From NCBI RefSeq assembly GCF_003353065.1, contig NZ_CP027806.1, positions 2,810,501 to 2,874,500 of the forward strand: 64,000 bases of DNA. The letters are read 5' to 3'. Numbering within the stretch: the first letter of the stretch is position 1; the number at the start of each line of letters is the position of its first letter. Under the pieces are notes generated by a model, which made no database searches, was not told the DNA's origin, and saw only the letters and a list, made by a program, of their open reading frames with translations. Shown here piece after piece: positions 36,859 through 49,256 of the stretch. The stretch is from Cyclonatronum proteinivorum (GTDB taxonomy: Bacteria > Bacteroidota > Rhodothermia > Balneolales > Cyclonatronaceae). Both the position numbers and the translations under genes were made by a program.

Positions 36859-38532
36859 ATGCCAACACTTAACTGGATCGGTAAAGAGAAAGTAATTAAT
36901 CATCACCGGGATGTGCCGTTTCGGGTTTTAAATCATAAATACGGCTTTACTGCAGAAAAAGGCGAAACTAATAAGCCGACCAATAGTGGCAATAAAATTA
37001 TTCACGGGGATAATCTTGAGGCACTAAAATCCCTTTTGCCAGAGTACGAAGGCCAAGTGAAGTGTATCTATATTGACCCACCATACAATACAGGTAATGA
37101 AGGTTGGGTATATAATGATAATGTCAGTCACCCTAAACTCAAAAAATGGCTTGGGGAAGTTGTCGGTAAAGAAGGTGATGACCTAAGCAGACATGACAAA
37201 TGGCTTTGCATGATGTATCCAAGACTTCAGATCCTAAAAAGATTACTTTCTATAGATGGTTTGATTTTTATATCAATTGATGACAATGAATACCAAAGTT
37301 TGAAATTTCTATGTGACGAAATATTCGGAAGACAAAATTTTATCACAAACTTTTCTTGGCGGACAGATGGGAACTTTGATAATCAAGCGAAAATCAAGAT
37401 AAACCATGAATATATTTTGTGCTTTGCAAAAAAAATAAGTCAATTTGAACACCCTCGTATCGTAGATCCAAATATTGACCCATCGAGCAAACTTTTTAGG
37501 AGAGTAATTAGGAATACGATCGTCAAAAATGGACCCAAAAACCCTGTTAGCTCTATAAACTTACCCATAGGGTTTCCCGCTGAATTTGAATCAGGTGTTC
37601 TTGAACCCCGGAATGATGCTTGGCCCAAATTTGATGAACCGTTAAAAATTTCTGGATATAAATTAGAAGAGCCAGTATCAGTCTCAAGCGGATGGAGTTC
37701 GAAGAAACTTTTAGAGTCTTTTATTCATGCTAAGTTCAAGCCAGTTTTAGATACAAAGCAACAACTTACACGTTTTGTGATTACTAATTCCGGTGCCATT
37801 GAAGCATTAAAAGACAGGGAGCAGCCAAGCCATGTGGTAAGCTCTTTAAAAAATATGGGTAGCACACAAAATATGAGCTCCGATTTAAAAAAAATGGGTA
37901 TTAATTTTGATTACCCTAAGCCTAACTCGCTGTTAGAATACCTCTTAAGCATTCATCACACTAAAGATCACTATGTACTTGACTCGTTCGCAGGATCAGG
38001 TACAACTGCCCACGCAGTACTAAATCTTAACAAAAAGGATGGTGGTAACCGAAAGTTTATACTTATCGAAATGGAGGATTATGCAGAAAAAATAACGGCC
38101 AAAAGAATAAAAAAAGTTATTATAGGGTATGGAGACGGTAAAAATGAAGTCGAAGGCACAGGCGGAAGCTTTGATTATTACGAATTAGGCGAGCCTCTTT
38201 TTATTGGAGAAAATGCTGAATATCTGAATGAAAAAGTAGGCGCAGAAAAAATACGGTCATATATCTGGTTTAGTGAAACGCGCACTCCTTATCAGGCTCA
38301 TAACCAACAGTCTGAAACCGATTATTTCCTTGGGGCGCATGAGCAAACAGCCTACTACTTTTATTATCTTCCTCAGGAGATCACGACGCTTGACCATGAT
38401 TTCCTTGCTTCCGTTAAAACCAAGGCAGAACAATATGTCATTTATGCTGACAACTGTTTGCTCTCGAAAGAATACTTGAGTTCGAACAATATCATTTTCA
38501 AAAAAATCCCGCGTGATATAAACCGATTCTGA
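36859..38532 (+). CDS. mod: Type III restriction-modification system methyltransferase (Mod)
   Basis: Site-specific DNA adenine methyltransferase of the beta class, 557 residues. The catalytic motif DPPYNTG is at residues 73-79, and the SAM-binding motif FAGSGTTAHAV at ~377-387, in the order expected for type III Mod subunits. The opening KIIHGDNLEALKSLLPEYEG and the HDKWLCMMYPRLQ block are typical. The central ~200 residues should be the target-recognition region. The gene is AT-rich compared with the chromosome around it, suggesting acquisition. It ends one base before the Res gene, forming a tight two-gene operon. Confidence 0.95.
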   Translation: MPTLNWIGKEKVINHHRDVPFRVLNHKYGFTAEKGETNKPTNSGNKIIHGDNLEALKSLLPEYEGQVKCIYIDPPYNTGNEGWVYNDNVSHPKLKKWLGEVVGKEGDDLSRHDKWLCMMYPRLQILKRLLSIDGLIFISIDDNEYQSLKFLCDEIFGRQNFITNFSWRTDGNFDNQAKIKINHEYILCFAKKISQFEHPRIVDPNIDPSSKLFRRVIRNTIVKNGPKNPVSSINLPIGFPAEFESGVLEPRNDAWPKFDEPLKISGYKLEEPVSVSSGWSSKKLLESFIHAKFKPVLDTKQQLTRFVITNSGAIEALKDREQPSHVVSSLKNMGSTQNMSSDLKKMGINFDYPKPNSLLEYLLSIHHTKDHYVLDSFAGSGTTAHAVLNLNKKDGGNRKFILIEMEDYAEKITAKRIKKVIIGYGDGKNEVEGTGGSFDYYELGEPLFIGENAEYLNEKVGAEKIRSYIWFSETRTPYQAHNQQSETDYFLGAHEQTAYYFYYLPQEITTLDHDFLASVKTKAEQYVIYADNCLLSKEYLSSNNIIFKKIPRDINRF

Positions 38533-38533
38533 T

Positions 38534-41167
38534 ATGGAACTGAAAAATTACCAGCATAAAGTAATTGAAGACCTTGAAGATTTTTTAGAATATCTCCGGG
38601 AGTATCAAACTCCTGAAACGGCTTTCAATCAATATTGGGAAGACCGGATTGGTCCGTACAACCCCATTGCTGGTATCGGGATGGAACCCTATAAGCAAAC
38701 CATTCCTAAAGCCGCTCATGTTTGTATTAAAGTCCCCACCGCAGGCGGCAAGACTTTTATTGCCTGCCATGCGCTTCATTCAATATTTAATGCTACCGGA
38801 GACAGCCTGCCCAAAGCTGTTATTTGGCTTGTGCCATGGAGCAACCTGCTTGACCAAACAGTTCACAGCCTGAGCAATCCCGATCATCCTTACAGGAAAA
38901 AGCTGAACGCGCTGTTTAATCACAGGGTAGAGGTTTATACTAAAGAAGATCTCTTGCAGGGCAGCAACTTTAATCCGACCGTTGTTCAGGATCAGCTCTC
39001 AATCATCGTAATGAGCTTTGCCAGCCTTCGGGCCAGAAAAAAAGAGGATCGGAAAGTATATCAGGAGAATGGGCAGTTAGCTGCATTCGCGAATCAGTAT
39101 TCAGACGCTAAACATCTGCTTCACGAAACGGACGAAACGGCACTCATAAATGTCATTCGAAGTCTTAACCCTGTTTTAGTTGTAGATGAAAGTCACAATG
39201 CGGAGAGTACGCTAAGTGTTGATATGCTTGGTAATCTGAATCCATCTTTTATACTCGATCTTACGGCTACGCCCAAAATAAACAGCAACATTGTTAGTCT
39301 TGTCCCTGCCATTGAGCTCAAAAAAGAGCACATGGTTAAATTGCCCGTAATTGTTTACAACCATCAGGATAAAACAGATGTGATTAACAGCGCATTGCAC
39401 CTGCAGCGTAAACTTGAGCTTTTAGCCATTGAAGAGCGCAAAAAAGGAGGCAAATACATTCGACCAATTGTTCTGTTTCAGGCGCAGCCTAAAACCAAAG
39501 ACGATAACACAACTTTTGAAAAGCTCAAGCGGCAACTGTTAAACGTAGGGATTCCTGAAGAGCAGATTAAAATAAAAACAGCAAATATTGATGAGCTAAA
39601 GGACGTCAGTTTGTCGGATGAATCTTGCCCTGTAAGATATATCATAACGATCAACGCACTTAAGGAAGGCTGGGATTGCCCCTTTGCCTATGTGCTGGCT
39701 TCGTTAGCCGACAAATCATCCGCTGTTGATGTAGAGCAAATCCTTGGTCGTGTTTTAAGGCAGCCTTATGTAATGAGACATTCAGCTTCATTGCTCAATG
39801 TCTCATACGTATTGACCGCTTCGGCCAAATTTAATGATACGCTGCAAAACATTGTTGAAGGACTTCAAGCCTCTGGTTTCAGTGAAAAGGATTACAGAAA
39901 AAAAGATGTGATGTCCGAAGCGTCCAAAAAGGAGGCTATTGTTGATCCTATGACCATAGAGCTTTTCCCTGAACAAGTACAGGAACATGAGGAGGAAGAA
40001 ATTGACAGTGAACGGATTTCGTATAATGAAACCGAACACGAAATCGGTGCAGAAGACCCTGCTATAGCAGACATTACCAGCCTTGCTGAACAGCAAAGCA
40101 AGGAAATGGAATCGGAAATCGAGCGGCAGAAAAGCAAACCAATTGATGAACACCAATTTATGGAAATGGGTGATAAGGTGAAGCGCTATAAATTAATTGA
40201 AGCATACAGTACCATAGCCAAAGAAATTGAACTGCCTCAGTTTTTTATTGAAACCCCAAAAGGTGATATTTTCGGTGCAGGAGAAGCCTTTTTAAATCAA
40301 GAGCTTCTCTTAAAAGGTTTTAAACTTGCAAGTGAAGATACGAAGATCGATTTCGAAGAAAACGCCAAAGACCTGTACAAAGTTGACATTCATAAGCAGG
40401 GTGATGAAGACTATTCACCCCGCTTTGAGAAAATCGCAAATTATTCTGTAAAGGATGACATCGTAGAATATATTCTTGCTAAGCCCAAAGAAAGTCAGAT
40501 AAAAGACATAGCTTACCGTTTAGTAAATGCTGTTGGGAATATGTACCCCATATCCGATCATGAAATCAGACTATATATTGAAAGAATTATTGCAAGTTTT
40601 AGTGCTGAGCAGTTTAGAAGTATATTAACGAGCTACTTCAGGTACGCAACCAAAATAAAAGAGAAGGTAAAATCGCTTGCAGACGCATACGCCGAACAGC
40701 AGTTTAATGAGCTGTTAACCATTGGCAAAGTATCAGCCAAACCGACCTGGAAATTCCCGGAAGCTATAGTACCAGGTCCGGTAGGCTCATCGATTAGTAA
40801 GTCCCTTTATGAACGTGAAGGGATAATGAATGACTTCGAAACTTCAGTTATCTCAGATATTTCGAGCTTACCTAATATAACTTTCTGGCACAGAAACCTT
40901 GGTAGAGGAAAAGGATTTTCAATAAACGGATTTAAATCCAGGCATTACCCTGATTTCATATTGCACACCAGGAATGGAAACATCATCATACTTGAAACCA
41001 AAGGAGATGACAGAGACAACCCTGACAGCGCCTCAAAAAGAAGGCTTGGAGAAAAATGGGCTAATCTCTCAGGTGTAAACTACTACTACTTTATGGTCTA
41101 TAATAAAATCTCCCCCGAAGGTGCATTTAACCGGGTAAAAGCAAGAGAACTGATTTCGAGATTGTAA
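38534..41167 (+). CDS. res: Type III restriction-modification system restriction subunit (Res)
   Basis: The 877-residue ATP-dependent endonuclease subunit. Superfamily 2 helicase motifs are visible: Walker A TAGGKT at residues 69-74, DESHN at 218-222, DLTATPK, and the late motif EQILGRVLRQPY. The C-terminal nuclease is PD-(D/E)XK type: HYPDFI with Asp807, then IILETKG with Glu821 and Lys823. All key residues are present, so the system looks functional. It acts with Mod, whose gene ends immediately upstream, to cut unmodified DNA carrying two oppositely oriented sites. A charged insertion (~residues 470-545) is rich in Glu. Confidence 0.95.
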   Translation: MELKNYQHKVIEDLEDFLEYLREYQTPETAFNQYWEDRIGPYNPIAGIGMEPYKQTIPKAAHVCIKVPTAGGKTFIACHALHSIFNATGDSLPKAVIWLVPWSNLLDQTVHSLSNPDHPYRKKLNALFNHRVEVYTKEDLLQGSNFNPTVVQDQLSIIVMSFASLRARKKEDRKVYQENGQLAAFANQYSDAKHLLHETDETALINVIRSLNPVLVVDESHNAESTLSVDMLGNLNPSFILDLTATPKINSNIVSLVPAIELKKEHMVKLPVIVYNHQDKTDVINSALHLQRKLELLAIEERKKGGKYIRPIVLFQAQPKTKDDNTTFEKLKRQLLNVGIPEEQIKIKTANIDELKDVSLSDESCPVRYIITINALKEGWDCPFAYVLASLADKSSAVDVEQILGRVLRQPYVMRHSASLLNVSYVLTASAKFNDTLQNIVEGLQASGFSEKDYRKKDVMSEASKKEAIVDPMTIELFPEQVQEHEEEEIDSERISYNETEHEIGAEDPAIADITSLAEQQSKEMESEIERQKSKPIDEHQFMEMGDKVKRYKLIEAYSTIAKEIELPQFFIETPKGDIFGAGEAFLNQELLLKGFKLASEDTKIDFEENAKDLYKVDIHKQGDEDYSPRFEKIANYSVKDDIVEYILAKPKESQIKDIAYRLVNAVGNMYPISDHEIRLYIERIIASFSAEQFRSILTSYFRYATKIKEKVKSLADAYAEQQFNELLTIGKVSAKPTWKFPEAIVPGPVGSSISKSLYEREGIMNDFETSVISDISSLPNITFWHRNLGRGKGFSINGFKSRHYPDFILHTRNGNIIILETKGDDRDNPDSASKRRLGEKWANLSGVNYYYFMVYNKISPEGAFNRVKARELISRL

Positions 41168-41199: not shown

Positions 41200-41319
41200 A
41201 TGCGCCGGAATATGCAGAGTGCATCCATTCGGGAAACAGATCGGCAACTATACCATAAATTCGGCCTCAATCCGGAAGAGATTACGGTTATTGAGGGTAT
41301 GATAAAGCGGATGGGGTAG
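41200..41319 (+). pseudogene. C-terminal remnant of a DNA methyltransferase-type gene
   Basis: A 39-codon frame reads MRRNMQSASIRETDRQLYHK then FGLNPEEITVIEG. The pattern TD-x-x-(L/I)Y-x-x-(F/Y)GL-x-x-EE is the usual tail of Eco57I/TaqI-like and other N6-adenine methyltransferases of restriction systems. No body of such a gene is present, so it is probably a leftover of a replaced restriction-modification gene just past Res. Confidence 0.5.
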
Positions 41320-41434: not shown

Positions 41435-41526
41435 ACATAACGGATTGGCGTTTGTGCTGCCGGGGTGACCGTCTAAGAATATAAGCAAAAATTGCTTACC
41501 CATCCGCACGAAATGCTTTGTTAGGC
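41435..41526 (-). other. attC-like recombination site A
   Basis: Read on the minus strand the site starts GCCTAAC, overlapping the stop codon of the 41521-42567 gene, and ends GTTATGT. In between it folds as an imperfect hairpin with arms GCATTTCGTGCGG and GCAGCACAAACGCC and a tip TAAGCAA-TTT-TTGCTTA. Length (92 bp), RYYYAAC start, GTT end and stop-codon overlap match integron attC sites. Confidence 0.7.
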
Positions 41527-42567
41527 GCATTTCTTTGATTCTAAATATGTTAAAAAGGACTCCGGAGAACTGATAAATTCCGTTGTATTTGATAAAGTAA
41601 GTTCTGAGTATTTGTTCAAAATATGTCTAATGTTTCTATCTTCAGTAACAAATACGTCTCCATATGTAAGAGGAACTATCATCATTTCAGTATCGTGAAA
41701 ATCATTAATTGTGAACTTCTTATTTTCATTCAAACCTGTATATATCATAACTTCACAAAATGTGTTTAGTGCTGGAAGTAGAGGGAAAATATGATTATAG
41801 CTACTTTCATCGGGGTCTTTCGGAATACTGTTAAAATAGTTAGTTACCTTTAGCAATGAGGCTGGGGATAAAATTCTATTTAATTTAAATATCCGCGGAA
41901 GTATTGTTTGCTTTGCAATGTGTGTCCTTTCAATTGTTCTAATTCTTGGAACTGACCTTTTTGCATACTCATTTCTTTTAATTAATTGTTCTGTCATTTG
42001 ATTCTCAAATGGAATTTTATTCATCGGAAGTCGATCTTTGAGCATTGTGACAAAATCATTAATCGATAAACTAGAGATTGCTTTTGGAAAAGTACAACTT
42101 GAAAACTCCCTAATTTTTCTATCTAACTCTGTATTTCTTGGATTGGGATTAAATTTCAATTGAAACTTTGAAGAGATAAATCCAGATATTGGTAAGTAAA
42201 TATGAGAGTTGTTCAATTGATATTCTTGGTCATCTATTACACCAGCAATTAGTAGTTCTATTTCTTTATCAAATATTTCATTCGGAGACCGAAAACATAA
42301 ACTAAAGCTTATTGAATCCATAAATTCAAATACTTGTTTTGCAGAGTCATAATTCTGCTTAAGAAGCTCTCGGAAAGTATCCTTTGAAAGTGGGCAAAAT
42401 ATTTTACCACACTCAAATAATCGTTTTAAGTGTAACTTTATACTTTTGAATTGATCATTTTCTTCTCGAGATATCTTGTTCCACATATTGGTGTCTAAAA
42501 AAAAAGCTTCTCGTTTTGTGATACGAGAGAGAATTTCGTGATTATATATTTCTGAGAATTGATACAT
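41521..42567 (-). CDS. PIN-like protein in an attC-flanked cassette
   Basis: The 348-residue AT-rich protein has no clear named family. The pattern of acidic residues suggests a PIN-type ribonuclease fold: Asp25 in FFLDTNMWN near the start, and HDTEMMIVPLTYGDVFVTED near residue 290, with TED before a helix as in VapC-like proteins. The long middle is helical and unassigned. The gene fills one cassette exactly, starting 12 bases after site B and with its stop inside site A. Single-gene cassettes of this kind often encode toxins, antiphage or stress proteins. RNA cleavage is an inference from four acidic positions only. Confidence 0.65.
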   Translation of the reverse strand: MYQFSEIYNHEILSRITKREAFFLDTNMWNKISREENDQFKSIKLHLKRLFECGKIFCPLSKDTFRELLKQNYDSAKQVFEFMDSISFSLCFRSPNEIFDKEIELLIAGVIDDQEYQLNNSHIYLPISGFISSKFQLKFNPNPRNTELDRKIREFSSCTFPKAISSLSINDFVTMLKDRLPMNKIPFENQMTEQLIKRNEYAKRSVPRIRTIERTHIAKQTILPRIFKLNRILSPASLLKVTNYFNSIPKDPDESSYNHIFPLLPALNTFCEVMIYTGLNENKKFTINDFHDTEMMIVPLTYGDVFVTEDRNIRHILNKYSELTLSNTTEFISSPESFLTYLESKKCA

Positions 42568-42579
42568 GTTTGAGAAAGC

Positions 42580-42669
42580 GCCTAACGGCTTGGCGTTTGT
42601 GCTGCGGGGTGACCATGCCTGAAGATAAGCAACAATGGCTTACACGGCAGCAGGAAATGCTTGTTATAG
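42580..42669 (-). other. attC-like recombination site B
   Basis: Minus-strand reading begins CTATAAC, ends with a perfect GTTAGGC (GTTRRRY), and carries arms GCATTTCCTGCTGCC/CGCAGCACAAACGCC around the tip TAAGCCATTGTTGCTTA. It separates the nuclease-like gene from the PIN-like gene. Confidence 0.75.
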
Positions 42670-42673
42670 CAAA

Positions 42674-43795
42674 CTAAAGTTTGATTCTGTATAACTTGTT
42701 TCCCTTTTGACTAAAACGTTCTTCAATAATTCCTTGACGCAACATGTTTTCAAGATGATGTCTAATCTGCGATGTGGGAATAAATGATAATTTATTGAAA
42801 CCTTGTTGTTTGCCCCCCCATTTTTGTATCCTAAGCGGTGAGAAGGCCCACTTTGAATATTTACTGAGAAATCTTCGCAACAGAGATTCAATGTCATCAA
42901 TATCAGTATTATCTATCTTATTTAGCTCATATTCAGAGTATGTTGCTTTTAAATTATGAAACTTTGTATCAATAGAATTAAATTTGACAATTGGAATACC
43001 TTTATAAAAGTTTAGATCAATAATATCGTCTGGAACGAGAATTAACGGTTGAATAGCAACTCGAACATTTCTCTCAGATAGATAGCTTTCGTATTCTTCT
43101 TTGTGATAATTAATCTGATGTGCTGCATTTTCTAATATGGAAGGGCGAGTTATATATTTAATTTCTAATAGATAATGAACAGTTGGTGTCTCTATGATTG
43201 CATCAATTATTAAGCTTCTGCTACCAGAGACAAGACGTACTTCTTTTCTAATATTTTTATAAGGAAACGGAATCTTATTTTTCACCAAAGACTCTAATAC
43301 TGATTTTTCAAAATTTAATGCAGTACTAACCATTTGATTTTTATCTCTTACAGTTGAATCCTCAATATCTGTTATACCAGCAGGTGGATCTACGATGTCT
43401 TCTATCGATTCTACATCATCTGCCCCAGTATTCTCTTCCTTTTCGATTTCCGCAGATATTTCTTGTTCAGTTTTAGCCTTTACCTCTTCATTGCTAGCAT
43501 TCCCTGACAGGTATGCCCAAAATTCTTTTCTATTCCATATCAAGGCAGCAAGTTTTTCTAAAAAAAGTATTTCTGTGACTAACGTAGCAACAACAAAAAC
43601 AGAAACAACATATACAACATGCAGATTAGCAGCTAGTGCTAGAGATACTACTAAAATGGAGCCAAGTAATTGAGTTATAACTTTTTTATCACTAACTAGC
43701 ATCACACAAATAGCAATGATTAACCCAACAACTGCTAAAATTGACGCTATAGTTTCAAAAATTGTTGAATTGGTAACTAAATCCATAAATATCAT
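42674..43795 (-). CDS. Membrane-anchored PD-(D/E)XK nuclease-like protein with C-terminal winged helix
   Basis: The 373-residue cassette gene product. Three N-terminal helices (about 12-34, 41-58 and 59-78) are followed by an acidic linker (100-150). A restriction-endonuclease-like domain has Asp198 in LIIDAII and Glu211-x-Lys213 in LLEIKY, with an upstream helix acid near Glu163, fitting the PD-(D/E)XK core. Residues ~305-373 look like a winged helix (PTSQIRHHLENMLRQGIIEE). The gene fills the cassette between sites C and B. A membrane-tethered nuclease with a DNA-binding tail suggests defence against incoming DNA, but no such family is recognised by eye. An alternative start is Met4. Confidence 0.75.
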   Translation of the reverse strand: MIFMDLVTNSTIFETIASILAVVGLIIAICVMLVSDKKVITQLLGSILVVSLALAANLHVVYVVSVFVVATLVTEILFLEKLAALIWNRKEFWAYLSGNASNEEVKAKTEQEISAEIEKEENTGADDVESIEDIVDPPAGITDIEDSTVRDKNQMVSTALNFEKSVLESLVKNKIPFPYKNIRKEVRLVSGSRSLIIDAIIETPTVHYLLEIKYITRPSILENAAHQINYHKEEYESYLSERNVRVAIQPLILVPDDIIDLNFYKGIPIVKFNSIDTKFHNLKATYSEYELNKIDNTDIDDIESLLRRFLSKYSKWAFSPLRIQKWGGKQQGFNKLSFIPTSQIRHHLENMLRQGIIEERFSQKGNKLYRIKL

Positions 43796-43816
43796 CGAGC
43801 ATTGTTAGTAAATTTG

Positions 43817-43906
43817 CTATAACGGCTTGGCATTTGTGCGGCGGGGCAAACATTTAAGAGTATAAGCAACAAGAGCTTACCCGTCCGCACGAAATGCTTG
43901 TTATTT
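43817..43906 (-). other. attC-like recombination site C
   Basis: Minus-strand reading ends CCGTTATAG and has arms GCATTTCGTGCGGAC/CGCCGCACAAATGCC around the tip TAAGC-TCTTGTT-GCTTA. It starts just after the stop of the small acidic gene at 43908. It is nearly identical to site A over the first 25 bases. Confidence 0.75.
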
Positions 43907-43907
43907 T

Positions 43908-44117
43908 TCAGAACCCCAAAAAATCAAAATCACCATCGGCATCCCAATCATCTTCGCCCTCTCCTTCTTCATCCTCATTGTCCAATCCATCACCCTCTAC
44001 ATTTGGAGCCGTCACATAATCCCAGTATCCAGTAGGATCTACAAGTTCATCTGGGTCTTCTACATCAGAAGCTTTTATCCAAGTTCCGAATATTGTTAAA
44101 AATTTATCCTCTTTCAT
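43908..44117 (-). CDS. Small acidic protein, partner of the TPR protein
   Basis: The 69-residue protein begins MKEDKFLTIFGTWIKASDVE and ends in a very acidic tail (NEDEEGEGEDDWDADGDFDF). Its start lies 17 bases after the stop of the TPR gene, and its stop abuts attC-like site C, so both genes belong to one cassette. Such acidic tails resemble DNA mimics or chaperone-like antitoxins, but nothing more specific can be said. Confidence 0.6.
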   Translation of the reverse strand: MKEDKFLTIFGTWIKASDVEDPDELVDPTGYWDYVTAPNVEGDGLDNEDEEGEGEDDWDADGDFDFLGF

Positions 44118-44134
44118 ATTTTTATAACTTTTAC

Positions 44135-44743
44135 TTAGTCAAAAAATTCACTAGTTATTTGGCCTGTTAAAGCAAAGATTACACCGCCCGCAGCATATTT
44201 ACCAACTCTTGAAACCCATTTGTTAAAATCATTTGGCCCTGATTGGGAAGACTTATTTGTATGATTGCTCTGCGATTCTTTCCTTTTCAATAAAGACTTA
44301 GCTTCATCATGCCCCATTTGTGCAGCTATTTCCATGTTCTGCCAACCATCATCAAACTTTGATTGCTTCAATTGGCTCATAGCTATTAAATAGACTTTAT
44401 CAGCATTCAATCCAAATGGCTCATCAACTATACTTAGTATAAGATCTTCAGCTTCATAAAAACCACCTTCATTATAGTTATCAACAGCTGCATTGTAGAA
44501 AATGTAATCTATAGCTTCAATTGATGGATCATATTTAGATTGGTAAACTAAATCCCGCCAAATATCAAAGGCCTCATTATGATTTCCTGTCTCAAACAAA
44601 CAACATGCTAATAAGTGCCAATATTCAGCTTCATTTTTCTTATTAATGGCCATTTTAAGCCAATCAATAGCAGAACCTAAATTATTAGATTCAATATCTG
44701 ATAAAGCTTTCTTGTAACATTGATTCGCTGTTTTATAAAACAT
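44135..44743 (-). CDS. TPR/Sel1-like repeat protein with C-terminal membrane segment
   Basis: The 202-residue protein, started at the ATG at 44743 (MFYKTANQCYKKALSDIES). The upstream TTG frame would run into the inverted repeat at 44805. Three to four helical repeat units are visible (AIDWLKMAINKKNEAEYWHLLACCLFETGNHNEAF as two consecutive units; FYEAEDLIL; GWQNMEIAAQMGHDEAKSLL, the last Sel1-like). A Ser/Asn linker and a C-terminal hydrophobic segment (YAAGGVIFALTGQITSEFF) follow. It is probably a scaffold working with the acidic protein encoded downstream; the pair occupies the first visible cassette position. Confidence 0.65.
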   Translation of the reverse strand: MFYKTANQCYKKALSDIESNNLGSAIDWLKMAINKKNEAEYWHLLACCLFETGNHNEAFDIWRDLVYQSKYDPSIEAIDYIFYNAAVDNYNEGGFYEAEDLILSIVDEPFGLNADKVYLIAMSQLKQSKFDDGWQNMEIAAQMGHDEAKSLLKRKESQSNHTNKSSQSGPNDFNKWVSRVGKYAAGGVIFALTGQITSEFFD

Positions 44744-44804
44744 GATTTTTGTTATTATGAGTTTTAAAAAATAACTACTTATTGAGCGACTGACAATATA
44801 CACC

Positions 44805-44939
44805 CCCAAGTCGTATAAGTAAAGAATTATCTACTTATGCGACGCACGGGTACGCATTAAGCACCAAAAAGGCGTTTAATAGCGTGTTCGTTTTCGGGGT
44901 TGTGCTTCGTCGTATAAGGAAATACTTATACAACTTGGG
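44805..44939. repeat. Inverted repeat bordering the cassette region
   Basis: CCCAAGTCGTATAAGTA at 44805-44821 faces TACTTATACAACTTGGG at 44923-44939 (17-bp arms, one mismatch). The enclosed ~100 bases carry no gene. It lies just upstream of the first cassette gene and may mark an element end or a regulatory structure. Confidence 0.6.
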
Positions 44940-45456
44940 TGAAATGCATTCAAATCTTGCTGCTGTTGCGATGCATGCCAAAACGATCCCATAAGCTCCC
45001 TTTATCTTGGCACTGCCTCAAGCCTCGGGTTGGACTCCTTTCATCTATCTTGCAAATCTTTGTCCGTTAGGTATATCGACTCTGTTTCCGGGTTTTCATC
45101 ATAATGCCTGATTGCAAACCCGTGTATAGCTTGTGCCGGAATGAAGGCTTGCCCGGTAAATCCGCGATTTTTTTCTCCATCCGTTGGGCCAACCGAATGG
45201 TGTTTTCCTTTTCTGTTCCCGGTTCAGGTTCAGGTTCAGGTGCAACGGGCAGGGTACGCGCCCGACCGTTGGGATGCTGTTTCGTGCTAATTGAATTTGC
45301 TAAGGCCGTTTTACAATGATCGTATTGGTATGGTTTGTTTAGAATGGAGGATGAAGCAGGGCTGTCGTTATTGATATGAATTTTGTTTCTGAAACTTTCG
45401 GATGCTATTACAAACAAGGCCGTCTGCGCGTGCCGGCATGCTCGGGTTTGCGTTTG
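44940..45456. other. Intergenic stretch without a convincing gene
   Basis: The only frame of size (45067-45417, minus) has no family features and contains a low-complexity EPEPEPG run arising from GGTTCA triplication at 45222-45240. I see no other structure. Confidence 0.4.
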
Positions 45457-45533
45457 ATCAAAGACATATCAAAGACAGGTCAAAGACGTATCAAAGACGT
45501 ATCAAAGACGTATCAAAGACGTATCAAAGACGT
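45457..45533. repeat. 11-mer tandem repeat (ATCAAAGACGT)7
   Basis: Seven head-to-tail units, the first three slightly divergent and the last four identical. It is followed at 45543 by an inverted partial unit, GTCTTTGATATGAC, that could fold back on the array. Confidence 0.9.
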
Positions 45534-45850
45534 ATTTTACTTGTCTTTGATATGACTTAGTCCTGTTTTTGTCTCATTTTTGTTACAGCTTTGGTATAGC
45601 CTAAACCCGGGCAATTCTGATCTTTGGAAAGGCGGGATGTTCGTGGGCGTTCCTGCTTAGGAGTGGGACAGCACAGAGGCGGGAAACCAAAGTTAACCGC
45701 GACCACCGTCAACCCGGAAACGCCTTGAAGTACGCCCGGCGCGGCAAGCCGCGCCGCTTGCTCAGCCCCCAATCATTACCCCCAACCCGTCTTCCCGGAA
45801 ACCGTGCGGTTCACGGGTTTTGGGAGGTGGCCCTGCACGCTGTCGCACGG

Positions 45851-46231: not shown

Positions 46232-46368
46232 CAAGTAGTTGCGGAATTTTTCCAAACGCTTCTAAACCATCTTATTCATCTTTCAAGCCTATAAATCCTG
46301 TTCAAAAAAGGGGCCTGACCTGACATCAGGAGCAAATGCGTTTCGTGGTATGCCGAACCGCCGTGCCC

Positions 46369-48950
46369 GTCACACCCCGCCCGTTCGCTGCGCTCACCCG
46401 GGCACCCCTCTCGCAGAGGGGAAATTTAGCTCCGTGGCGTTTCAGGGTTTCCAGACTCAAAACAAAATGTTGTTATTCAGGCATCGAAGTCGTTATTAAA
46501 ACGGCACTTGCCAACTCCCCTCTCGAGAGGGGTGGCCCTTTTTCAGTGTGTCACGAAACAGTATGTCGGTGTGTCAGTGTGTCTTTTGCAGGTTATGATG
46601 TTGATATTATTTGGGATACAAAATTCCCCTCTCGAGAGGGGTGGCCCCTGTAGATGGGCGTAAAGGGCCATTGAAGCCCGAACCGCACCCAGTCCCTTTC
46701 AACGCCCAAATGCTGACGGGCCGGGGTGTGGAGAGGCCGACCGAAGGCTACGAACCAAATTACCGGCACTAATGCAATGGATGGGACAGCCTGCGGGTAG
46801 AAGCTCCTTGGCGTAAGCTGCTGGAATTCCGGCATCGCGGCGGTCACACCCCGCCCGTTCGCTTCGCTCACCCGGGCCCCCCTCTCGCAGAGGGGAATTT
46901 TAGCTCCGTGGCTTTTCAGGGTTTCCAGACTCAAAACAAAATGTTGTAATTCAGGCATCGAAGTCGTTATTAACACGGCACTTGCCAACTCCCCTCTTGA
47001 GTGGGGTGGTCCTTTTTCAGTGTGTCACAAAACAGTATGTCGGTGTGTCAGTGTGTCTTTTGCAGGTTATAACGTTGATATTATTTGGGATACAAAATTC
47101 CCCTCTCGAGAGGGGTGGCCCCTGTAGGTGGGCGTGAAGGGCCATGTGGCCCGAACCGCACCCAGTCCCTTTCAACGCCCAAATGCTGACGGGCCGGGGT
47201 GTGGAGAGGCCGACCGAAGGCTACGAACCAAATTACCGGCACTAATGCAATGGATGAGACAGCCTGTGAGTAGAAGCTCCTTGGCGTAAGCTGCTGGAAT
47301 CCCGGCACCGAGGCGGTCACACCCCGCCCGTTCGCTTCGCTCACCCGGGCACCCCTCTCGCAGAGGGGAATTTTAGCTCCGTGGCGTTTCAGGATTTCCA
47401 GACTCAAAACAAAATGTTGTTATTAAGGCATCGAAGTCATTATTAATACGGCACTTGCCAACTCCCATCTCGAGAGGGGTGGCCCCGGTAGATGTCGTGA
47501 AGGGCCATGTGGCCCGAACCGCACCCAGTCCCTTTCAACGCCCAAATGCTGACGGGCCGGGGTGTGGAGAGGCCGACCGAAGGCTACGAACCAAATTACC
47601 GGCACTAATGCAATGGATGGGACAGCCTGCGGGTAGAAGCTCCTTGGCGTAAGCTGCTGGAATTCCGGCATCGCGGCGGTCACACCCCGCCCGTTCGCTT
47701 CGCTCACCCGGGCACCCCTCTCGCAGAGGGGAATTTTAGCTCCGTGGCGTTTCAGGATTTCCAGACTCAAAACAAAATGTTGTTATTCAGGCATCGAAGT
47801 CGTTATTAACACGGCACTTGCCAACTCCCCTCTCGCAGAGGGGAATTTTAGCTCCGTGGCGTTTCAGGATTTCCAGACTCAAAACAAAATGTTGTTATTA
47901 AGGCATCGAAGTCATTATTAATACGGCACTTGCCAACTCCCCTCTCGAGAGGGGTGGCCCCGGTAGATGTCGTGAAGGGCCATGTGGCCCGAACCGCACC
48001 CAGTCCCTTTCAACGCCCAAATGCTGACGGGCCGGGGTGTGGTGAGGCTGACCGAAGGCAACGAACCAAATTACAGGCACTAATGCAATGGATGAGACAG
48101 CCTGCGGGTAGAAGCTCCTTGGCGTAAGCTGCTGGAATTCCGGCATCGTGCCCGTCACACCCCGCCCGTTCGCTGCGCTCACCCGGGCACCCCTCTCGCA
48201 GAGGGGAAATTTAGCTCCGTGGCGTTTCAGGGTTTCCAGACTCAAAACAAAATGTTGTAATTCAGGCATCGAAGTCGTTATTAATACGGCACTTGCAAAC
48301 TCCCCTCTTGAGAGGGGTGGCCCTTTTTCAGTGTGTCACGAAACAGTATGTCGGTGTGTCAGTGTGTCTTTTGCAGGTTATGATGTTGATATTATTTGGG
48401 ATACAAAATTCCCCTCTCGAGAGGGGTGGCCCAGTTAGAGGTGTGTGAAGGGCCATTGTAGCCTGAACCGCACCCAATCCCTTTCAACGCCCAAATGCTG
48501 ACGGGCCGGGGTGTGGAGAGGCCGACCGAAGGCTACGAACCAAATTACAGGCACTAATGCAATGGATGGGACAGCCTGCGGGTAGAAGCTCCTTGGCGTA
48601 AGCTGCTGGAATTCCGGCATCGAGGCGGTCACACCCCGCCCGTTCGCTGCGCTCACCCGGGCAAACCTCTCGCAGAGGTGTGTTTTAGCTCCGTGGCTTT
48701 TCAGGGTTTCCAGACTCAAAACAAAATGTTGTTATTCAGGCATCGAAGTCGTTATTAACACGGCACTTGCCAACTCCCATCTTGAGAGGGGTGGCCCCGG
48801 TAGATGTCGTGAAGGGCCATGTAGCCCGAACCGCACCCATTCCCTTTCAACGCCCAAATGCTGACGGGCCGGGGTGTGGAGAGGCCGACCGAAGGCTACG
48901 AACCAAATTACAGGCACTAATGCAATGGATGAGACAGCCTGCGGGTAAGA
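46369..48950. repeat. Tandem array of six ~474-bp non-coding units (R3)
   Basis: Unit landmarks GTCACACCCCGCCCGTTCGC begin at 46369, 46843, 47316, 47679, 48154 and 48628, so periods are 474, 473, 363, 475 and 474. The short unit lacks a ~110-base module beginning CCTTTTTCAGTGTGTCAC. Each unit carries the palindromes CCCCTCTCGCAGAGGGG and CCCCTCTCGAGAGGGG. Reading frames stay open on both strands in most units but have no plausible protein features. Copies differ by scattered substitutions. Confidence 0.9.
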
Positions 48951-49256
48951 AACATTTAGTTACCCCCGAACCCGCGCGCAGGGACGCGTCTCTACGGGGG
49001 TGAATTTTGGTTACCGGGTAGTACTGCTTTGGGAGATCCCTCACATGAGGTTTCGAATGGTTTTTGAGGTTTTCCTGCTGCTGTGGCTTCTGGTGCTTCC
49101 CTGATGGCTCCCGATGTTCGGGATGACGGGTTGTTTTTATTTGAGTTAAAGAAAGATGTATGCCTGGATCTCCTGTGCCGGACATGCCCGGCAGCAAAAA
49201 TTGGATGGCTAAGGGTGTCTTTGTGCAAATTCCGCGTTTTCTTCAGCGGGTAACGT
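48951..49256. other. Gap between array and R1 copy, no gene seen
   Basis: Contains a partial inverted match to repeat R2 (GGGAGATCCCTCACATGAGG at 49030-49049) and otherwise unassigned sequence. Confidence 0.4.

Follow-up and report, generated by a model that had tools for sequence, protein, structure and literature searches.

What does the minus-strand gene at positions 42674-43795 of the window (the whole 64,000-nucleotide stretch of the Cyclonatronum proteinivorum genome analysed here) encode, and does its product defend the host against invading DNA? A sequence-only reading had described a membrane-tethered nuclease with a winged helix, of no named family that it recognised, in a mobile cassette beside a type III restriction system, and had put it forward as a candidate antiphage or anti-plasmid effector. 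Our analysis establishes the 373-residue product as a combination of three known modules in an architecture without a name; the family to which it belongs is very rare. We read it as an inner-membrane-anchored, metal-dependent DNA nuclease carried on an integron cassette and acting most likely on incoming phage or plasmid DNA; the probability that we attach to this reading as a whole is somewhat below one half (about 0.45).

Domain organization of the protein

The open reading frame had been called exactly, and the layout assigned to its product from sequence held in each of its parts (Table 1). Three hydrophobic peaks correspond to the three predicted transmembrane helices, the linker that follows them is acidic, and the numbering of D198 and E211-x-K213 is right, with E163 as the matching acid in the first helix of the domain. 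The sole full-length relative that we found, a 371-residue protein of Tenacibaculum sp., is 41% identical; the nuclease domains of the pair are 36% identical, and E163, D198, E211 and K213 are all conserved between them. The distribution of charges would place the N-terminus of the protein outside the membrane and its C-terminus inside. The juxtamembrane segment is identical to the homologue at 18 of its 24 positions, and because this is the best-kept stretch of the protein it suggests that the membrane part is perhaps more than an anchor.

Table 1. Features of the locus, in coordinates of the window.
Feature	Position	Strand	Basis
Type III restriction-modification genes mod, res	36859..41167	+	Pfam; PADLOC MTase_III 3.1e-174, REase_III 7.7e-75
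Cassette 3: 348-aa gene 41521-42567, PIN-like by eye	41441..42585	-	
attC ending cassette 3 (PIN-like gene)	41437..41524	-	covariance model 85.5 bits (seed member)
Cassette 2, cut at G/TT, carrying the nuclease gene	42586..43822	-	sequence
attC ending cassette 2 (nuclease gene)	42582..42667	-	covariance model 92.6 bits (seed member)
Membrane-tethered nuclease CDS (putative), 373 aa, ATG start	42674..43795	-	ORF read from sequence
Three predicted TM helices, residues 16-34, 39-57, 60-78	43562..43750	-	hydropathy; helices also in AF2 model
Juxtamembrane segment, residues 75-98	43502..43573	-	alignment to Tenacibaculum homologue
Acidic linker, residues 97-150	43346..43507	-	pI 4.05, net charge about -13.5
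PD-(D/E)XK-like nuclease domain (predicted), residues 151-285; E163, D198, E211, K213	42941..43345	-	AF2, Foldseek, weak homologue profile matches
C-terminal winged helix (predicted), residues 300-373	42677..42898	-	pI 10.54; AF2, Foldseek
Cassette 1: TPR-like gene 44135-44743; short, highly acidic ORF 43908-44117	43823..44774	-	
attC ending cassette 1	43819..43904	-	covariance model 106.6 bits (seed member)
attI-like leader ahead of cassette 1; core to about 44937	44771..45150	-	repeats in genome

Evidence for a PD-(D/E)XK-like fold

Profile searches bear out the earlier impression that the architecture is that of no named family: the protein reached none (0 families) in Pfam, NCBIfam, PADLOC or PHROGs. 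Its likeness to NERD (PF08378) consists of a weak profile match across the nuclease domain (residues 163-254) at 13.5 bits, under the curated cut-off of 22.1 bits, and the Pfam search gave no match to the Mrr profile. Mrr-type type IV restriction enzymes carry a winged helix first and a PD-(D/E)XK nuclease after it, with no transmembrane helix; the present protein shares both modules with them but has its winged helix at the C-terminus.

The motif is weak evidence when taken by itself, and we rejected it as sole proof of a PD-(D/E)XK domain, because shuffling the nuclease core produced similar patterns in 137 of 5000 cases and 9 of 104 background open reading frames show them as well, these nine including the protein itself and its homologue. 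The case instead combines the motif with predicted topology, conservation and weak profile matches. AF2 models were built on an alignment two sequences deep and their confidence is modest, with pLDDT 54 and 61 for the models, the former belonging to the full-length chain (pTM 0.28); the nuclease-only model reached a pTM of 0.59 and a pLDDT of about 75-83 in its core. The order of elements in the nuclease-only model is helix, three strands, helix, strand, strand, in which the expected alpha-beta-beta-beta-alpha-beta order is present, and the low-confidence models place E163 in the first helix, D198 on the second strand and E211 and K213 on the third.

Structure prediction had been proposed in the sequence-only reading as the check on the fold, and it answered in part: the order of elements and the identity of the best PDB matches, mostly PD-(D/E)XK enzymes, favor the restriction-endonuclease fold, but no Foldseek match of the nuclease model to the PDB stood at E 0.001 or better. 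The top matches were the small subunit of R.BspD6I (E 3.8e-3, the best value), Nt.BspD6I and the R2 retrotransposon protein, with XisH, NurA and PaqCI also among them; one unnamed viral model matched by structure at E 7.8e-4. Sequence searches of the PDB gave nothing significant. The Tenacibaculum homologue weakly matches two PD-(D/E)XK enzymes, Hjc in Pfam (E 0.0028) and Cas4 in PADLOC (E 4.5e-4), a similarity at the level of the superfamily. Taken together, the models and these matches support, but do not prove, a restriction-endonuclease fold for residues 151-285.

Related families and distribution

The protein merges two arrangements described by Kosinski et al. (2005), with three transmembrane helices: COG4741 joins a membrane helix to a nuclease and was speculated to guard against foreign DNA, while COG5482 joins an AHJR-like nuclease to a C-terminal winged helix (PMC1189080). 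Compared by description, COG4741 (YraN-related) is alike in its N-terminal membrane anchor, its predicted cytosolic nuclease and its motif, E...(V/I)D...E(V/I)K against E163...ID198...EIK213, and differs in having one transmembrane helix, a minimal 120-residue C-terminal nuclease and no winged helix (PMC1189080). COG5482, compared in the same way, also carries a winged helix of about 100 residues C-terminal to its nuclease, but it is about 230 residues long with no membrane helices described, and its motif reads E-CD-ELK (PMC1189080).

Relatives were sought in samples of the phylum, of the window's own order, and of the order and family to which the Tenacibaculum genome belongs. In addition, 84,980 species genomes were scanned with a pattern that detects only relatives retaining the chosen peptides, so that distant members, in which these peptides are not intact, may have been missed. 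The full-length gene appears rare and patchy, occurring in 2 species among those searched, and the phages and viral contigs searched contained no relatives of the protein. Three matches on 420-residue frames (L012-L014) were dropped as chance, two of them being glutamyl-tRNA reductase by eye. Genes that by eye are GNAT-like and CPBP-like surround the Tenacibaculum copy, together with a YjgF gene and others that are unknown, and no recognised defence gene adjoins this single full-length homologue at its locus. We also considered whether the Tenacibaculum gene is an integron cassette of the same type and rejected this, as the attC model gave no match there; the model tests one type of attC, and sites of another type may be present.

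The non-defence accessory stretch that surrounds the homologue speaks for an explanation in which the protein is a membrane-associated PD-(D/E)XK enzyme of DNA processing (repair, recombination or the handling of DNA that is taken up at the membrane), encoded by an accessory gene and without a part in defence. Precedents for such an enzyme exist in COG4741, with its transmembrane helix and nuclease, and in RmuC; the roles proposed there are uptake, toxic or repair ones (PMC1189080). The gene is nevertheless rare and patchy, unlike those of housekeeping repair enzymes, and is borne on a cassette, and we regard this explanation as unlikely.

A winged helix shared with smaller membrane proteins

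The C-terminal winged helix of the sequence-only reading is supported by the full-length AF2 model, in which the pLDDT blocks of this region are mostly 71-89, and by Foldseek matches of the modeled domain to Zalpha (target TM 0.83-0.84), Fur and MecI. Two smaller proteins (P0003, P0004), one encoded by a Vibrio aerogenes plasmid and the other by a genome of the window's own genus, carry the same winged helix; each has two transmembrane helices and lacks a nuclease domain. These two-helix proteins are encoded at L010:7656-8306 and L024:1495-2214, and the V. aerogenes plasmid copy lies near conjugation genes.

Because nuclease-free transmembrane proteins carry the same winged helix, the membrane part and the winged helix look like the constant unit, which favors a membrane-bound regulator in which the PD-(D/E)XK-like fold is a catalytically idle scaffold and transcription is controlled by the winged helix through its binding to DNA or to a partner. 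A dead domain, however, need not keep its catalytic residues, and all four are intact in both full-length members; we consider a regulator of this kind quite unlikely.

A cassette in a decayed integron

The mobile cassette of the sequence-only reading proves to be a true integron gene cassette, the second of three. It is delimited by attC sites, whose core sites are complementary, and an attI-like leader precedes the first cassette. The start of cassette 2, (G)TTATAGC (GTTATAGC), is complementary to the core of its own attC, GCTATAAC, and the start of cassette 3, GTTAGGCGC, to the core of its own, GCGCCTAAC. The scores of the attC sites in the window (Table 1) are partly so by construction, since these three sites helped to build the covariance model. 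Across the whole genome the model finds 16 sites, including ones outside the seed, and it matches in 10 of the 11 family genomes searched, that of C. proteinivorum included. Under the proposed attC pairing 87.4% of cells are paired, whereas sliding it leaves no more than 49.4%, and covariation among the seven sequences was not above that in shuffles.

The core of the leader is present in about 10 copies in the genome, and five aligned copies end at the same G/TTA point. Copies lie, among other places, at 753565 (L026), 936951 (L037), 1361381 (L029) and 4198810 (L028). At L026 the leader copy falls between a truncated intI and a partial PIN-like cassette gene, 91% identical (L026:3727-4235), and a second integrase-like gene nearby is split around transposase-like genes. 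An intact integron integrase was not found in the C. proteinivorum genome, where fragments occur, and one was detected above cut-off in 6 of the 11 family genomes. The scattered attC arrays, the repeated leader and the integrase fragments constitute a dispersed, decayed integron system; as the integrase persists only as fragments, the three-cassette array is probably no longer mobile, except with help in trans.

The type III restriction system cited in the sequence-only reading is real, but its adjacency is weak evidence for a role in defence, because mod and res lie outside the attC array and on the other strand. Several further observations concern the surroundings. At 41200-41319 of the window lies a short remnant that resembles a restriction-type gene at its 3' end; it has a counterpart at L028 (67% over 304 bases), which also adjoins an attC site there. 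Repeats of about 300 nucleotides, spaced 474 and 363 bases, occupy 46362-48963, and an 11-bp tandem array lies at 45457-45546. The protein of another attC cassette of the same genome, at L029:2624-3307, matches the candidate defence family PDC-S11 (E 6.4e-8), a point in favor of the reading that we prefer, and has an ELK nuclease-like motif. The small acidic frame of cassette 1 encodes 69 residues and is a possible DNA mimic.

A nuclease toxin that stabilises the array or acts against competitors, kept in check by an antitoxin or immunity partner, is very improbable: that strongly acidic frame, just upstream and reminiscent of DNA mimics, is the only nearby candidate for the partner, but it belongs to a different cassette, the nuclease cassette holds none such, and the protein has no secretion signature.

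Proposed function

We return to the reading that we prefer, a nuclease acting on incoming DNA at the inner membrane, and suggest how it might work. The three N-terminal helices would anchor the protein in the inner membrane, from which the chain would run into the cytoplasm as the acidic linker; the PD-(D/E)XK-like domain would then cut DNA that the basic C-terminal winged helix grips. Anchored in this way, the enzyme would cut only such DNA as is at the membrane, an incoming phage or plasmid being its most likely source. Before triggering, the basic winged helix could be masked by the acidic linker, a form of autoinhibition.

How much the cassette itself should weigh can be gauged from Vibrio, in which most integron cassettes tested showed no antiphage activity and those that did numbered 16 of 179 in V. 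cholerae and 9 of 57 tested in V. parahaemolyticus, about 9-16% (PMC12409362). The nuclease and membrane features of the present protein lead us to set its chance of antiphage activity above this prior, and we judge it to be roughly a third to a half; a role against phages or plasmids is thus plausible but unproven. The Vibrio antiphage cassettes (Darracq 2025, Kieffer 2025, Getz 2025, as summarised in PMC12409362) are like this one in being single-gene cassettes between attC sites that encode a candidate effector, whereas the Cyclonatronum cassette sits in a host of the Bacteroidota whose integrase has decayed, and its antiphage activity is putative. A broader proposal, that the protein represents an undescribed family of defence effectors, three-helix PD-(D/E)XK nucleases with a winged helix that destroy DNA at the membrane and are spread by integrons, the winged helix being reused on membrane proteins that are perhaps sensors, seems to us doubtful.

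Should the protein have no part in defence, it would still be an unnamed combination of its three modules, and a very rare one. If the defence role is true, a membrane-tethered DNA-cutting effector would join the recently recognised antiphage integron cassettes and would extend them beyond the Vibrio hosts whose chromosomal cassettes have been tested, and the gene would offer a compact, single-gene subject for testing.
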